Notes under the pieces: model-generated
What the model was told of the DNA's origin: nothing
The model's database searches: none
What the model saw: the letters and a program-made list of their open reading frames with translations, nothing else
Part shown: one piece after another, positions 30,693-39,610 of the stretch
Position numbering within the stretch: position 1 is the stretch's first letter
Layout of the letters: every line of letters starts with the position of its first letter
Position numbers and translations under genes: made by a program
DNA from: Haloarcula limicola
GTDB taxonomy: Archaea > Halobacteriota > Halobacteria > Halobacteriales > Haloarculaceae
Reading direction: 5' to 3'
Length of the DNA: 64,000 nucleotides
Assembly (NCBI RefSeq): GCF_010119205.1
Contig: NZ_WRXM01000001.1
Coordinates: 992,001-1,056,000 of the forward strand

Positions 30693-31034
30693 ATGATTCG
30701 GCCGGGTCACGTCGGCGTCCACTGGGGCGACTTCCACGCCGACTTCGCCGTCGTGCTCGCGGTGTCGGCCGTCGCGACGGCGGCGCTCTGTGCCCTCGGC
30801 CTCGCGGTGTACCGGCGGCGCGGATCGCGGGCCTATCTGTTGCTCGCGCTGGCGCTCGTCGCGCTGGTCGCCCGCCCGCTGGTGGCCGGGCTGGCGATGC
30901 TGGGGACCGTCAGTCCCGCGACCCACCACACGCTGGAACACGGGGCCGACGCCGTCGTCGTCGCGCTGGTGTTCGGGGCGGTCTACTACGCCCGCAGCGT
31001 CGAGAAGCGACTAGACAACGAGGAGGACACGTGA
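30693..31034 (+). CDS. Small three-helix membrane protein
   Basis: 113 residues with three hydrophobic helices (about 18-38, 47-67, 85-103). HWGDFHADFAV at the N-terminus and THHTLEHGADAVVVALVFG supply several histidines at membrane edges. I do not recognise a characterised family. It is followed after 37 bases by a winged-helix gene in the same direction; paired membrane-protein/regulator genes of this kind often act together, which is an inference. Confidence 0.65.
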   Translation: MIRPGHVGVHWGDFHADFAVVLAVSAVATAALCALGLAVYRRRGSRAYLLLALALVALVARPLVAGLAMLGTVSPATHHTLEHGADAVVVALVFGAVYYARSVEKRLDNEEDT

Positions 31035-31071
31035 CTGGAACAACAGCGGTACGGACCGAGGCGGAGGGACG

Positions 31072-31575
31072 ATGAACGAGACGCGGCGGCGCATCCGCGA
31101 CCACATCGAGCGGGACCCCGGCGTCCACTTCCGGGAGCTGACCCGGGCGCTGGATCTCGGGACCGGACAAGTGCAGTACCACCTCCGGAAACTCGACGAC
31201 GTCGTCGGTGAATCGGTCAGCGGTCGGAAGCACTACTACCCGCCGGGCTACGACCCGTGGGAGCGGCGCGCGCTGGCGCTCCTCCGGCGCGAGACGGCCC
31301 GCGACGTGGTCGTGACGCTGCTGGAGCGAGAGACCGCTCGACCCGCGGCCGTCGCCGACCACCTCGGGATCGCCCGGAGTACGCTCGAACACCACCTCGA
31401 CGGGCTCGCGGAGTGCGGCGTGGTCGAGAAGCGCCGGGACGCCGGCCGCGTGACCCTCGCGCTCTGTCGGCCCGAGGAGACCGCTCGCCTCCTCCGTTCC
31501 GCCGAACCGACCCTCCCCGAACGGCTGACCGACCGGTTCGAGCGGCTGGTGGACGGGCTGCTGGAAGACCCGTAG
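31072..31575 (+). CDS. Double winged-helix transcription regulator
   Basis: 167 residues containing two tandem winged-helix DNA-binding domains: TRRRIRDHIERDPGVHFRELTRAL...VQYHLRKLDDVV (about 4-45) and RDVVVTLLERETARPAAVADHLGIARSTLEHHLDGLAECGVVEKR (about 78-122). This is the layout of haloarchaeal ArsR/MarR-like regulators. It sits directly before a run of Tat lipoprotein genes and after a membrane protein, so it is the likely regulator of that cluster. No ligand-binding domain is seen. Confidence 0.8.
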   Translation: MNETRRRIRDHIERDPGVHFRELTRALDLGTGQVQYHLRKLDDVVGESVSGRKHYYPPGYDPWERRALALLRRETARDVVVTLLERETARPAAVADHLGIARSTLEHHLDGLAECGVVEKRRDAGRVTLALCRPEETARLLRSAEPTLPERLTDRFERLVDGLLEDP

Positions 31576-31655
31576 GACGGTACGAATCCGTCCCGTCCCC
31601 TCGTTCGACGCCCGTACCAGAACCCAATAAGGGGTGCAGTCCCTAGCGGGCGTCG

Positions 31656-32924
31656 ATGACCGACCGCGGCATCTCCCGACGCGAGTTCGCCAAGAGCGCC
31701 GTCGCCATCGGCGGGACGGCCGCGCTCGCCGCCTGCCTCGACCGCGGCGCGCCCGACGTGCCCGAGGGGACGGACGACCCCGGCGGCTTGCCGGCCCGCC
31801 AGCACGCGTGGAACGCCTCCCTGGCGACCGACGACGCCGGCAACCCGCGCATGCCCCACCACCACGTCCTCCTGTTGCTCGACTACGAGGGCGACGGCGC
31901 GCCGACCGACGGCGACCGGAGACAGGTGGAGGAGGCACTGACCGGGCTCGAACGCGCCTACGAGTGGAGCAACGAGGGGCTGCTGTTCACGCTCGGGTAC
32001 ACGCCATCGTACTTCGAGCGCTTCGAGTCGGGGCCAACGGGCGTGGAGTTGCCGGCCCCGAAGGCCCTCGCCCCCTTCGAGGACCCCGCGTTCGACACGC
32101 CCGACGCGCTGTTGCACCTCGCCAGCGATCACGAGAGCGTCGTGCTGGCCGCCGAGGAGGCGCTGAAGGGCAACCGCGAGACGGTCAACGACCGCGAGGT
32201 GTCGGCGACGTTCTCGGGCGTCTTCACCGAGTCCGACCGTCGAACCGGCTTCGTCGGTCCCGGCCTGCCGGCGGACAATCAGGACGTCGAGGGGATTCCG
32301 GACTCCGACCCGGTCCCCGAGGAGTCGCCGCTGTTCATGGGCTTCAAATCCGGCTTCAAGGGAAATCAGGCCAGCGAGGACCGCGTGAGCGTCGACTCCG
32401 GCCCGTTCGCCAACGGCGCGACGGAGCACCTCTCGTTCATCCGCCTGCACCTCCAGCAGTGGTACGAACAGGACTCCCGAGAGCAGCGTGTCTCGAAGAT
32501 GTTCTGCCCGGCCCACGCGGACGAGGACCGCGTCGAGGGCGTCGGCGAGAACCTCGGGACCGACAGCGGCATGGACGAGTGCCCGGAAGACGTCGTCGAG
32601 AGCAGCCGACGCGAGGGTGTCGCGGGCCACTCCCAGAAGATGACCCGGGTGCGCGAGGACGACAGTCCCCTGATACTCCGCCGGGACTTCGACTCGACGG
32701 ACGGCGGCGAGGCGGGGCTTCACTTCCTCTCGCTCCAGCGGTCCATCGCCGACTTCGTGAACACGCGGGAGTCGATGAACGGCACCGACGTCGCCGAGAA
32801 CTCGGCGGTCGGCCAGCGGGTCAACAACGGCATCCTGCAGTACATGACCGTCGAGCGCCGCGGGAACTACCTCCTGCCGCCGCGGGACCTGCGCGCGCTG
32901 CCGAGCGCCGACCCGAGCGCCTGA
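31656..32924 (+). CDS. Tat lipoprotein with DyP-peroxidase-like fold
   Basis: 422 residues. SRREFAKSAVAIGGTAALAAC combines a Tat motif and a lipobox, so the protein is exported folded and anchored at the outer face. Near residue 324 the segment GHSQKMTRV followed by LILRRDFDS and GLHFLSLQRSIADFV parallels the DyP-type peroxidase end, in which the proximal heme His lies in a similar H-x-x-K/R context, followed by RRG and the FQRD-type helix. The distal GxxDG motif is not obvious, so peroxidase activity is unproven. A deferrochelatase-like or heme/iron role is an inference supported by the neighbouring metal-transport-like protein. Confidence 0.65.
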   Translation: MTDRGISRREFAKSAVAIGGTAALAACLDRGAPDVPEGTDDPGGLPARQHAWNASLATDDAGNPRMPHHHVLLLLDYEGDGAPTDGDRRQVEEALTGLERAYEWSNEGLLFTLGYTPSYFERFESGPTGVELPAPKALAPFEDPAFDTPDALLHLASDHESVVLAAEEALKGNRETVNDREVSATFSGVFTESDRRTGFVGPGLPADNQDVEGIPDSDPVPEESPLFMGFKSGFKGNQASEDRVSVDSGPFANGATEHLSFIRLHLQQWYEQDSREQRVSKMFCPAHADEDRVEGVGENLGTDSGMDECPEDVVESSRREGVAGHSQKMTRVREDDSPLILRRDFDSTDGGEAGLHFLSLQRSIADFVNTRESMNGTDVAENSAVGQRVNNGILQYMTVERRGNYLLPPRDLRALPSADPSA

Positions 32925-32976
32925 TTTCGCCGCCCGTACCAGAACCGTCTTTGGGGGAAAGCCGATAGTCAGCGGC

Positions 32977-34026
32977 ATGAACCGCCGTCGTTTTCTCGCC
33001 GGAACCGGCCTCGCCGGAGCCTCGCTGCTCTCGGGGTGCGGGTCGCTGCAGAGCCAGTCGACGCGTGCGCCGCCGCTGGTCGAGGACCGCCCCGACGCGA
33101 CCTACTGGCCAACTCACGCCGAGGGGATGGGGATGGCCGGAATGGCGCAGGCGGGCGACTACATGGTCGGCCTGACCTACTCGTTCCCACACCGGTTCTG
33201 GACCGTGACCGGGACCGACGCGGAGAAGGTCGAGATCCAAAGCGACGACAGCCTCCACCTGATGGCGACGGTCTGGGACCCGAAGACCGAGATGGTCCTG
33301 CCGGTGAAAGCCGGAGTCTCCATCACGATTAAGCAGGACGGCGAGACGGTCGCCGACAAGTCGCCGTGGCCGATGATCTCACAGAACATGGGATTTCACT
33401 ACGGCGACAACTACGCCCTCTCCGGCGACGGCCTCTACACGATCAGCGTCCGCGTCAACGGCATGTCCGAGCGCCGCCTCGGCGCGTTCTCCGGCCGATT
33501 CGGCGAAGCCGGCGAGGCCAGCGTCGAGTTCGACTTCTCGCAGTCGGCCCTGCGGGACCTCTCCTTCGAGGAGTTCCCCGACCAGCAGGGCGAGCGCAAC
33601 GCGGTCGAGCTGATGGAGATGGAGATGATACCGACCTCGCAGACGCCCCCCGCCGGGCAGCTGCCCGGGTCGGTGCTGGGAACGAAGAAGGGGAACGACG
33701 GGGTGTACGCCGCGACGTGGCTGACCGAGGCCGACTTCCTCGGCGACGGCGAGTCGTATCTGGCCGTCTCGCCCCGCACGCCGTACAACCGCATTCCGTT
33801 GCCGATGATGTCGCTCGACGCGAGCGTCGAAGCGAGCGGTGAGACGGCCTTCGACGACGCCCTGAGCGCGGCGATCCACCCCGACCTCGGGTATCACTAC
33901 GGCGCGGTCGTCCCCGCGACCGGTAGCGACCCCTCGGTCACCGTCGAGGTCATCGCGCCGCCGCAAGTGTCGCGCCACGAGGGCTTCGAGACGGCATTCC
34001 TGTCGACGCCGTCACTCTCGTTTTAG
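32977..34026 (+). CDS. Tat lipoprotein related to Tp34/P19 metal-transport proteins
   Basis: 349 residues; RRRFLAGTGLAGASLLSGC is a Tat signal with lipobox. The mature protein opens with EGMGMAGMAQAGDYMVGLTYSFPHRFWTV, a Met/His-rich beta start like that of Tp34/P19 periplasmic iron-binding proteins, and has later metal-ligand candidates in QNMGFHYGDNYALSG and HPDLGYHYGAVV. The gene lies 52 bases after the DyP-like lipoprotein. Together they recall parts of bacterial ferrous iron uptake systems, but no FTR1 permease is present here. Similarity is from motifs only. Confidence 0.6.
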   Translation: MNRRRFLAGTGLAGASLLSGCGSLQSQSTRAPPLVEDRPDATYWPTHAEGMGMAGMAQAGDYMVGLTYSFPHRFWTVTGTDAEKVEIQSDDSLHLMATVWDPKTEMVLPVKAGVSITIKQDGETVADKSPWPMISQNMGFHYGDNYALSGDGLYTISVRVNGMSERRLGAFSGRFGEAGEASVEFDFSQSALRDLSFEEFPDQQGERNAVELMEMEMIPTSQTPPAGQLPGSVLGTKKGNDGVYAATWLTEADFLGDGESYLAVSPRTPYNRIPLPMMSLDASVEASGETAFDDALSAAIHPDLGYHYGAVVPATGSDPSVTVEVIAPPQVSRHEGFETAFLSTPSLSF

Positions 34027-34506
34027 GTCGAGGGTGAATCGGCTCTCCCCTTCCTGCCACGACCACCCAGGAAGTCGGGTCTGGACGCCCGCCGCGAGCG
34101 CCGCGTCGAGGTCGTCGGCTCCCGCCGCGTCGCCCTCGTCGCCGTGGGTCCGCATATCGGCGACGTGGAAGGTCGCCTCCGCGAGCAGTCGAAGGGGCTG
34201 GTTCCCGGCCACCATCCCGGCGAGTTCGCGGCCGAGCAGTTCGTCGACGACGAATCCGGGGTAGTCCCCCTCGACGTCGAGCGTCCGGAGCAGGCGGACC
34301 AGCGCCGCGACGTTGACGGCCACGTCGCCGTCGGCGAACACCGCGTCGACGGCGTCGAGGTACGCCTCCTCGTCGATGGTCGCGACGTCCGTATCGAACA
34401 GCTCCCCCAGATGGTCGCGGGTCTCGTTGACCAGCGGGACCACTGCGCCGCGCCGCTCGCGGACCCACTCGTACTCCTCGGCGACGACCGCAGGCGTGAC
34501 GTGCAT
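34012..34506 (-). CDS. Unknown helical protein, overlapping the 3' end of its neighbour
   Basis: 164 residues, soluble, acidic, mostly helical (EEYEWVRERRGAVVPLVNETRDHLGEL; LRLLAEATFHVADMRTHG). No motif is recognised. Its stop lies inside the last codons of the convergent Tp34-like gene (15-base overlap), so the two transcripts would be antisense at their ends. The position inside the lipoprotein cluster on the opposite strand suggests an associated but separately transcribed gene. Confidence 0.6.
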   Translation of the reverse strand: MHVTPAVVAEEYEWVRERRGAVVPLVNETRDHLGELFDTDVATIDEEAYLDAVDAVFADGDVAVNVAALVRLLRTLDVEGDYPGFVVDELLGRELAGMVAGNQPLRLLAEATFHVADMRTHGDEGDAAGADDLDAALAAGVQTRLPGWSWQEGESRFTLDLKRE

Positions 34507-34604
34507 GGGTCATCCTCGCGCGCCGCCGCCTTCGGTGTGGCGGCGGTTCCGCGCGCTCCGATCGGGCGTTCGATAGGTCAATCGAGATCGTAGCGAACAG
34601 GAGA

Positions 34605-34610
34605 CTTATT
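34605..34610 (+). promoter_or_regulatory. TATA-like box for the lipoprotein pair at 34636
   Basis: CTTATT is centred about 28 bases before the ATG at 34636, suggesting that the two lipoprotein genes downstream form their own leaderless transcript. Confidence 0.5.
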
Positions 34611-34635
34611 CCGGTGGGCGAGCGACGCTGAGACG

Positions 34636-35400
34636 ATGGTCCCTCCGACACGCCGACGCGTCCTCCACGGAGCCGCGGGCATCGCGGCCGCCTTATCGGG
34701 ATGCGGCGAACTTCTCAGCGGGAGCGATAGCTCGACGCGGTCACAGCCGACCCCGACCGCCGGCGAGAGCGGCGAATCGAGCCGCGGAGACTTCGCCGGC
34801 AGCGAATCGGACCCCGCTTCCCTCGCGCTGCGGGTCGATACCGACCGCCCGCCGGTCTGGTTCGACGACCCCGACCGCGAGGACGGCGGGCGACCGACCC
34901 CCGCGGAGCACGGTGGGTACGGGTACTTCCGAACGCACGGGCTGGTCGACTCCGCCGACCGCGCCGGGCGCGTCTCGGTCGCCGACGTACCGGACCCGGA
35001 CCGGATCCCGGCGTTCTTCGAGGCGACGGATTTCGACAGCGAGACGGTCTACGTCGAGAGCCAGCTGGTCGAGGAGTGCTTCCGCCTCGAACTCTGTAGC
35101 GTCTCGTGGAGCCCCGACGAGGTCCGGACCGACTACGGGCGGGTCGTCCGCCCCTACGACGACCGCTGTGAGGACGGCGAGAAAGTCTTCGCGGTGCGTT
35201 TCATCAGGATTCCGGCCGCCCTCGACGCCGAGGAAGTGAGCGGCTACGGCTCCTCTGTCGGAGCCGGGAGCTGTGGGAACCGACGGGCGCGGGCCGAGTT
35301 CGGCTCGTCCGAGGACGACGGCGACAGCGAGACGGCGACGGCAGACGGCAGCGAGACGCCGATCGAGCCGCCCGCGACGCCGACGGGAGGCGAGCAGTGA
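34636..35400 (+). CDS. Tat lipoprotein, unknown
   Basis: 254 residues. RRRVLHGAAGIAAALSGC gives a Tat signal and lipobox; a Ser/Thr/Gly-rich spacer follows. The folded part (about 60-220) has four Cys residues in VEECFRLELCSVSW, DDRCEDGEK and GAGSCGNRR that could form two disulfides outside the cell, and the tail is acidic and Thr-rich. I know no function. Its TGA overlaps the ATG of the next lipoprotein gene (TGATG at 35398-35402), so the two are translationally coupled. Confidence 0.65.
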   Translation: MVPPTRRRVLHGAAGIAAALSGCGELLSGSDSSTRSQPTPTAGESGESSRGDFAGSESDPASLALRVDTDRPPVWFDDPDREDGGRPTPAEHGGYGYFRTHGLVDSADRAGRVSVADVPDPDRIPAFFEATDFDSETVYVESQLVEECFRLELCSVSWSPDEVRTDYGRVVRPYDDRCEDGEKVFAVRFIRIPAALDAEEVSGYGSSVGAGSCGNRRARAEFGSSEDDGDSETATADGSETPIEPPATPTGGEQ

Positions 35401-36698
35401 TGCCCGCCGGAGACCGCCTGAGCCGACGCGGGATGCTCGCCGGGATCGGTGCAGTCAGCGCGGGCGCGCTCGCCGGCTGTGGCGGTATCGGCGACCTCAC
35501 CGGGTCCGAGGGGACGGAGATACGGAGCCACGAGCTGCCGGCGGTCGACCCGGACGAGGACGGCCGACTGGTCGCGTCTGCCGTGCCCGTCGCCATCGAC
35601 AGCGATCACCTCGCGGCCGCCCGCGACCGCGCCACCTCGCTGCTGGCCGAGTTGCCGACGCCGCTCGGCCCGGACGAGATCCCGAACGGGCACGTCCGGG
35701 GGCGGTTGCTCGGCGCGGCCGACGACGCGACCGACTCGCTCGACGAGGCGCGGCGCGCGCAGACCGACCTCGCAGCGATGACAGAACTCCGGCGGAGCCG
35801 CGAACGCGCCCGCTACGCCGCCGGCGGCTGGCGGTTCGCCGCCGGGACGCAGTCGCTCGACGGCCTTCGGACGGCCCGGCAAAACGCCGTCGGCGAGGCG
35901 CGGACGTTCGAGTCGTCCCGAGAGTACCGGGGGAGCGACCCCGTCAGGGCGGCGCTGGTCCACGCCCGCATCGAGGAGTTGCTGCGCCGTGCGACCGACG
36001 ACGAACCCCCGCATACGGAAGCCGACGGCGGCGGGCTCCTGACCGTCGCCGAGTGGGCCGAGGAGGTCGAGACGGCGCGGGCGCTGCTCGCCGACGCTCG
36101 CCACCTCGATTCGCAGTTCGCGGCCTCGCTCTCCGCGGACGCCGGGACCGTCGAGGGACAACTGCGCCGCGCGGCGGAGGCGCTGCTCGCCGACGTTCGC
36201 TCGCGCCGAGAGGGCCTCCCACCGGAACCGACCGCCGACGACTGGGGCGTCCGAGAGCGAGCCGTTCACGAACTCCGGAGCGACGCCGACTACGGAGCGA
36301 AGCGCGTCGCCGACGCCGCCGGACCGGCCGACGCCGTTCTCGACGCCACGGGACGACTCGCCGCGTTCGCCGCGCTGGACAGCGTACTGGAGCGCGTCGA
36401 GTCGGGCGAACGGTTCGCCGTCGAGAGCGCCGCCGACGTCCGCCGGTACCGACAGACCGCCGTGGACGCAATCACCTCGACGCTGGCCGACAGCGCCGAA
36501 CCGGGGTTGACTCGAACCGTCCTCACCGACGCCGCCGGCCGCGTCTGGAGCGCGGACTGGGAGAGCAGCCGTCTCAGCGGCGAGGTCAGCCCCGCGCGGC
36601 TGACCGACCCGGTCTCGTCCTATGTCGTCGCCGCGGCGCTGGCGCGGGCCGCGCCGAAAGCCAGCGAGCGGGCGGCCGAGGCGCTACGGACGGCCTGA
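35400..36698 (+). CDS. Large helical Tat lipoprotein, unknown
   Basis: 432 residues from ATG 35400 (a GTG immediately before it is in frame). LSRRGMLAGIGAVSAGALAGC is a Tat signal with lipobox. The rest is almost wholly alpha-helical and Ala/Arg/Asp-rich (for example DSLDEARRAQTDLAAMTELRRSRERARYAAGG), without cysteines after the lipobox or a clear metal motif. Such helical bundles occur in exported binding proteins, but I cannot assign a family. It is coupled to the preceding Cys-containing lipoprotein. Confidence 0.65.
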   Translation: MPAGDRLSRRGMLAGIGAVSAGALAGCGGIGDLTGSEGTEIRSHELPAVDPDEDGRLVASAVPVAIDSDHLAAARDRATSLLAELPTPLGPDEIPNGHVRGRLLGAADDATDSLDEARRAQTDLAAMTELRRSRERARYAAGGWRFAAGTQSLDGLRTARQNAVGEARTFESSREYRGSDPVRAALVHARIEELLRRATDDEPPHTEADGGGLLTVAEWAEEVETARALLADARHLDSQFAASLSADAGTVEGQLRRAAEALLADVRSRREGLPPEPTADDWGVRERAVHELRSDADYGAKRVADAAGPADAVLDATGRLAAFAALDSVLERVESGERFAVESAADVRRYRQTAVDAITSTLADSAEPGLTRTVLTDAAGRVWSADWESSRLSGEVSPARLTDPVSSYVVAAALARAAPKASERAAEALRTA

Positions 36699-39081: not shown

Positions 39082-39187
39082 TTCGCCAGCAATTAAACCA
39101 CTGGCGAGGCCGACAGCAGCGCTCCGTGCGGTGTGGGAACGCACGCCGCACGGAACGCTTTTTCCGGAGCGGTGCGGTAGAGAGGCT

Positions 39188-39610
39188 GTGAGTCAGCCCT
39201 CCAGAACGGTCCCGCTCGGCACGCGACAGTTGCTCGGCTTCGCGACGCTCGTCGCCGCCGTCGCGACCGCGGGGAGCCTCTACTTCTCGCTGGGCGTCGG
39301 CCTGACGCCGTGTCGGCTCTGCTGGTATCAGCGAATCTTGATGTACCCGCTCGTGGTGGTGCTCGGCGTCGCCGCGTTCGAGCGCCGGGCCGAGGTCGCG
39401 CGGACGGTCCTCCCGCTCGCCGTCCTCGGCGGGAGCATCTCCGCCTATCACTCCTGGCTCCAGGTGAGCCAGTCCTCCTGCGGACTGGGCGCGGTGAGTT
39501 GCTCGGCGGTGGTGTACCGCGTCGTCGGCTTCTCCATCCCGAACCTCGCGCTGATGGCCTTCTCGCTCGTCGTCGCGTCCGTCGGCCTCGCGTGGTGGCA
39601 GCGGGGATGA
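39188..39610 (+). CDS. dsbB: DsbB-family disulfide bond formation protein
   Basis: 140 residues from a GTG at 39188. Four membrane helices are visible. The first cysteine pair is in LTPCRLCWYQR (CxxC) and the second in QSSCGLGAVSCSAVVYRVVGFSIPNLALM, the DsbB pattern. DsbB reoxidises a thiol-disulfide oxidase outside the membrane and passes electrons to quinone. No DsbA-like gene is adjacent, but cysteine-bearing exported lipoproteins lie a few kb upstream. An earlier in-frame ATG (39131) falls inside the hairpin array and is unlikely. Confidence 0.9.
   Translation: MSQPSRTVPLGTRQLLGFATLVAAVATAGSLYFSLGVGLTPCRLCWYQRILMYPLVVVLGVAAFERRAEVARTVLPLAVLGGSISAYHSWLQVSQSSCGLGAVSCSAVVYRVVGFSIPNLALMAFSLVVASVGLAWWQRG

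Follow-up and report, generated by a model that had tools for sequence, protein, structure and literature searches.

A conserved haloarchaeal locus encoding DyP-fold and P19-type lipoproteins: a candidate extracytoplasmic copper-handling cluster

Gene content and conservation of the locus

The window analysed here is a 64,000-nt stretch of the Haloarcula limicola genome, on which genes were called and matched to Pfam. Its positions 30693 to 36698 contain seven genes, designated A to G, of which only E is on the - strand (Table 1). The first four encode a small membrane protein, a transcriptional regulator and two lipoproteins, and form a candidate cluster for copper handling outside the membrane. 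An earlier note on this DNA had taken the whole region as one cluster and had compared its first two lipoproteins with parts of the Efe and P19 iron-uptake systems.

That note had counted four proteins within 6 kb that carry both a twin-arginine translocation (Tat) motif and a lipobox, and the count is correct. The RR motif is followed by a lipobox Cys in C (SRREF...LAAC), D (NRRRF...LSGC), F (TRRRV...LSGC) and G (SRRGM...LAGC), the last passing the regular expression when the upstream GTG start is taken. No further gene has both features by this simple expression, run over the 51 predicted genes of at least 80 aa in the window. B was rightly described as a double winged-helix regulator, having two winged-helix Pfam matches. 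A has two clear hydrophobic segments and an HHxxEHxxD motif; in an alignment of 20 homologues His78, His79, His83 and Asp86 are invariant and Glu82 nearly so. E, F and G have no Pfam match. The nearest named locus is that of Haloarcula amylovorans, where the counterpart of C is 93% identical.

Table 1. Genes, domains and active-site codons of the cluster region, in window positions
Feature	Position	Strand	Description
A	30693..31034	+	DUF7471 small membrane protein; PF24283 91 bits (cut-off 27)
B	31072..31575	+	Transcriptional regulator, HVO_0163 N-terminal helix-turn-helix (HTH) and ArsR-like second winged helix; PF24266 114 bits, PF01022 39 bits
C	31656..32924	+	Tat lipoprotein DUF7405, predicted DyP fold without catalytic Asp; PF24152 E 8e-166
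C Ser232 codon	32349..32351	+	Occupies the position of the GxxDG Asp of DyPs; GFKSG (EfeB GFKDG)
C His325 codon	32628..32630	+	Counterpart of DyP proximal haem His
C Arg343 codon	32682..32684	+	Counterpart of DyP distal Arg; ILRRD (EfeB MLRRG)
D	32977..34026	+	Tat lipoprotein DUF7350; PF24041 168 bits in two stretches, PF10634 26.8 bits (cut-off 21)
D domain 1, residues 49-193	33121..33555	+	Predicted P19/Tp34 fold
D domain 2, residues 228-348	33658..34020	+	DUF7350 proper; second HYG motif, His307, His334
E	34012..34506	-	Family not assigned; between D and F; kept in Haloarcula loci
F	34636..35400	+	Tat lipoprotein; four further Cys at 148, 154, 178, 213
G	35397..36698	+	Tat lipoprotein; GTG start overlaps F stop by 4 bases

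The neighbourhoods of C were compared in about 75 genomes and in a further 80 loci with organism names, and gene families were tallied in 292 haloarchaeal genomes. The order A-B-C-D recurs in distant genera (for example survey loci L047, L059, L063, L076, L090, L101, L107, L110, L126, L132, L146, L162, L187 and L189); elsewhere D comes before C, or A-B is transcribed divergently from C. Of 74 loci, 51 have D no more than 5.5 kb from C (46 of 69 without the five that had been retrieved through D), where chance would give about 1% or less, the D genes being few in a 3.7 Mb genome. Within the same distance B is found in 23 and A in 20 of the 74 loci. C is present in 262 of the 292 genomes and D in 255; both families are matched in the Haloferax volcanii genome. 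Both occur in 254, C alone in 8, D alone in 1 and neither in 29 (Fisher p 1e-31, a value that overstates independence since the genomes are related). About 87% of the haloarchaeal genomes sampled thus carry the C-D pair, although the two families still go by DUF names. A and B lie side by side or overlap in many genera and move together, sometimes divergent from C, as would be expected of a regulator and its membrane partner.

F and G behave differently. F is found in 159 of the 292 genomes, mostly distant from C, and G adjoins it in 10 of 10 loci examined. F-G stands beside A-D in the source species and a few related ones, and in Halorussus it lies a few kb from A-B-C, a loose link. F-G is an independent two-gene module, usually located elsewhere in the genome, and F and G were rejected as members of the system because they travel as a pair of their own. 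E is also outside the system and divides the two modules. The view of the four lipoproteins as one cluster therefore holds across Halobacteria for A-D, which co-occur, and fails for F-G. A gene for a DsbB-type disulfide oxidoreductase (39131-39610) lies 2.4 kb 3' of F-G, a position kept in some Haloarcula.

In many genera C and D are adjoined by a polytopic membrane protein, family K, which has no match in Pfam, NCBIfam or solved structures. In the source genome K is next to a second DUF7350 gene; at a further place in that genome, K and a small membrane protein of C2H2 type adjoin a gene resembling oxidase subunit III (G000:C4; L211 7532-10156). K might be a factor for the assembly of oxidase or copper sites. 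The source genome also has a paralogue of D (L091 4709-7756) next to an overlapping pair of HTH and DUF7521 genes, which again combines a regulator with a small membrane protein.

A 17,269-base stretch with the genes B-A-C-D-D-K and a P1B ATPase gene is 100% identical in assemblies of Haloarcula japonica, Ha. amylovorans, Halorussus marinus, Hrs. halobius and Halosegnis rubeus (positions 1-17269 of L163, L165, L166, L168 and L169). Either it moved very recently on mobile DNA, or the assemblies are cross-contaminated. Versions of 84-93% identity are found elsewhere.

The predicted DyP fold of C and its altered active site

An AlphaFold2 model of C, made with 50 homologues, reached a predicted local distance difference test score (pLDDT) of 85 and a predicted template modelling score (pTM) of 0.86. 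The top matches in a structure search (Foldseek, VIA-align) were exclusively DyP-type proteins. The best was Sphingomonas EfeB (6jbn; Z 27.4, 3.1 Å over 317 residues), and many DyPs gave Z 26-27 over about 300 residues; the model has the α+β barrel (double ferredoxin-like) fold. At the sequence level C falls below the curated Pfam cut-off for Dyp_perox_C (17.1 bits vs 20) and does not match Dyp_perox_N. A profile alignment with E. coli EfeB (hhalign, E 0.007), weak alone, agrees with the fold.

This alignment places the GFKDG motif of EfeB on G229-F-K-S232-G233 of C, the haem His on His325 and the distal Arg on Arg343. An alignment by eye had put the GxxDG motif at RRTGFVG; it was dropped in favour of the profile alignment. 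His325 and Arg343 are each kept in 74 of 74 homologues and in 50 of 50 of a second set, and Arg342 is invariant too. Residue 232 is Ser in 46, Ala in 26, Thr in 2 and Asp in none of the 74 homologues, and Ser in all 50 of the second set. The DyP resemblance noticed earlier survives structure comparison, and the haem His noticed with it is conserved. As modelled, C is a full DyP fold that has lost the catalytic Asp in every homologue; such a class-wide loss is a natural test of the role of that residue.

In a class V DyP no compound I forms once the Asp is lost, whereas some class P DyPs depend on Arg as the essential residue, and a class P DyP keeps peroxidase activity on Arg alone (reviewed in PMC8197335). 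Since Arg can be essential in this way, residual peroxidase activity of C is possible by analogy. C might then serve in oxidative-stress defence, clearing peroxide or the products of hypochlorite at the cell surface under induction by B. HVO_0163, the type member of the B family, is up under hypochlorite in Haloferax volcanii proteomes (PMC10294847), and the Arg on which a class P DyP can work is kept in C. HVO_0163 may however be a paralogue rather than a member of such a cluster, the class V result speaks against activity without the Asp, and the tight link of C to D and the metal site of D would be left unexplained. Such a defence function is unlikely.

The putative metal site of D and the case against iron

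The AlphaFold2 model of D (pLDDT 91) consists of two domains. Domain 1 matches Tp34, HftA, FetP and P19 with Z 12-13, the closest being Tp34 (2o6c, Z 13.2) and Cu-FetP (3nrq, Z 12.9). D also matches FtrA by hmmsearch (E 1.5e-7) and the Fe2+ transport family PF10634 above its cut-off, so that the likeness to Tp34 and P19 proposed earlier stands in sequence and in structure. Domain 2 gave weak structural matches of its own, taken from the full-length model. It is probably a repeat of domain 1, D being a tandem duplication, because the DUF7350 model matches domain 1 too (E 3e-5) and the HYG motif is present in both domains.

Six residues of domain 1, His72, His94, Met96, Met133, Met138 and His141, are invariant (50 of 50). 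D was aligned by profile with an Azospirillum P19-type protein encoded close to FTR1. The D segment DSLH94LM96 falls on SDVHLEAD, and WPM133ISQNM138GFH141YGDN falls on MPMVANDGPHYGDN. The copper ligands His42, Met88 and His95 of P19, identified in line with the titles of PDB variant entries, are kept in D as the aligned and invariant His94, Met133 and His141. A second group of P19 residues, Glu44, Asp46 and Asp92, is part of an acidic patch that holds Mn and is read as the likely iron site (PMC9174327). Here D departs from P19; Glu44 is replaced by Met96 and Asp92 by Met138, each in 50 of 50 homologues, and Asp46 by Ser, Thr or Val at position 98. The resulting Met/His site appears soft and would be suited to Cu(I).

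The homologue of D at L089 (7987-9207) has a long Met-rich GMSGM repeat ahead of its P19 domain, and a gene for a copper-type P1B ATPase lies within 5 kb, both in keeping with copper as the metal.

On balance copper is favoured over iron, mainly because the acids of the likely P19 iron site are invariant Met in D. The alternative is that the EfeB- and P19-like proteins make up a system for iron uptake or iron oxidation (a ferroxidase system), in which some unrecognised membrane protein stands in for FTR1. The nearest folds, EfeB for C and P19, FetP and FtrA for D, all belong to iron importers, P19 itself holds copper beside iron, and K is a recurrent polytopic partner without a family that could fill the vacant place. 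K is however missing from many C-D loci, the source locus included. The FTR1-type permease, noted earlier as lacking, is absent from the source genome and from all 292 genomes of the class in searches whose positive controls were matched, and because of this absence the cluster is not an Efe or FetMP iron importer. In addition, one simple 5-5-5 iron-box palindrome, an approximate motif and a weak test, had no match in the window. With the acidic residues of the iron site lost in D and the catalytic Asp lost in C, an iron importer of some other design keeps a small chance.

A related proposal is that C captures haem and takes the iron from it, with D as the receiver. C has the fold of EfeB, which has been reported as a deferrochelatase, an activity that is disputed (both in PMC8197335). 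The site in D is not iron-like, and the families scanned gave no haem transporter next to the cluster. Haem capture is highly improbable.

Proposed copper handling and comparison with known systems

The reading preferred here is that A-B-C-D is a haloarchaeal cluster for extracytoplasmic copper handling. Its probability is put at about one half, the metal being judged from residues and folds. D would be a lipid-anchored copper binder outside the membrane, its Met/His site descended from the P19/Tp34 fold. C would be a lipid-anchored haem protein acting on the same metal pool, most likely by oxidizing Cu(I) to Cu(II), or otherwise by putting its haem redox centre to use in loading copper or detoxifying it; which of these steps it performs is suggested tentatively, by analogy. 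A, the small membrane partner of the regulator B, is perhaps a metal sensor through its HHxxEHxxD motif, and the two together would sense a metal or redox signal. K would be a further partner in many relatives. The purpose could be either to supply cuproenzymes or to protect against Cu(I).

Some neighbouring genes are of the kind that such a function would attract. Sco1/SenC is found beside the cluster in three loci (L060, L069, L074), haem-copper oxidase genes near C in another three (L037, L058, L105), and a Cu-type P1B ATPase near C in L089. Several observations weigh against copper, however. The Cox and Sco neighbours are few and close to chance level. The P1B ATPases of L077 and L078 score higher with Zn/Cd than with Cu models, and that of the mobile island resembles the one in L077. 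The fourth copper ligand of P19, presumably His132, has no counterpart in the D alignment, and one acidic iron ligand of P19, Glu3, may persist as Glu49 of D. Finally, the reading does not explain the role of a C without its catalytic Asp. The P1B ATPases were not used as proof of copper, two of the three scored being of the Zn/Cd type.

These ATPases raise the alternative of a general heavy-metal resistance system, directed at Zn, Cd and Pb as well as Cu, rather than copper trafficking. It draws on the transferable B-A-C-D-D-K island, whose ATPase resembles the Zn/Cd-type enzyme of L077, and on similar ATPases in L135 and L138. The loci with ATPases belong mostly to one related lineage, most C-D loci are without a metal ATPase, and Met/His ligands favour Cu(I) over Zn or Cd. 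General resistance is decidedly unlikely.

A wider proposal, which goes beyond the copper-handling reading and is held with less conviction than it, is that in nearly all Halobacteria an iron-importer pair, DyP plus P19, may have been adapted to copper. The iron site of P19 would have become a methionine site, the DyP without its peroxidase acid a haem cuprous oxidase or a metal-loading partner, and the regulator would be coupled to a membrane metal sensor. If copper is indeed the metal, a few changes from carboxylate to methionine could suffice to switch a pair of iron-import folds to another metal, and the cluster would fill a gap in how haloarchaea handle copper, above all in those that lack Sco1. 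None of the papers searched names DUF7405, DUF7350 or DUF7471, in agreement with the earlier suggestion of a system not yet described. Its parts are of known folds. What is new is their pairing, DyP with P19, in the absence of FTR1, with changes at the catalytic and metal-site residues and a spread over an entire class of archaea.

Four known systems share parts with this cluster. First, the ferrous importer EfeUOB has a Tat-exported EfeB, the fold predicted for C. The cluster differs from it in that EfeU/FTR1 is absent from the class, the catalytic Asp is lost in C, and no EfeO-like protein (cupredoxin and/or M75 domain) was matched by Pfam among the cluster proteins, to which that search was limited. 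Second, the P19, FetMP and FtrABCD systems contain homologues of D domain 1, which keeps the copper-site elements His, Met and HYG. They differ in having FTR1 and the acidic iron-site residues that are Met in D, and in lacking the second domain fused in D. Third, CrdA, a copper resistance determinant of Helicobacter, has a related β-sandwich and was among the next fold matches of D domain 1 (H. pylori CrdA, Z 9.0); this likeness, known from structure alone, is weaker than that to P19 (Z 13).

The fourth is the Sco-ECuC-SLI_4212-DtpA operon of Streptomyces. It encodes a Tat-exported DyP, DtpA, alongside a membrane protein and extracytoplasmic chaperones for copper; DtpA is proposed to oxidize Cu(I) (PMC4736821). 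The chaperones there are ECuC and Sco, whereas the haloarchaeal cluster has the P19-derived, double-domain D; C is without the GxxDG Asp, and no Sco1 was found in the source genome. In both, a Tat-exported protein of predicted or known DyP fold is encoded beside a known or, for D, putative metal binder, and the haloarchaeal cluster may work in a manner like that of the Streptomyces Sco-ECuC-DtpA pathway.

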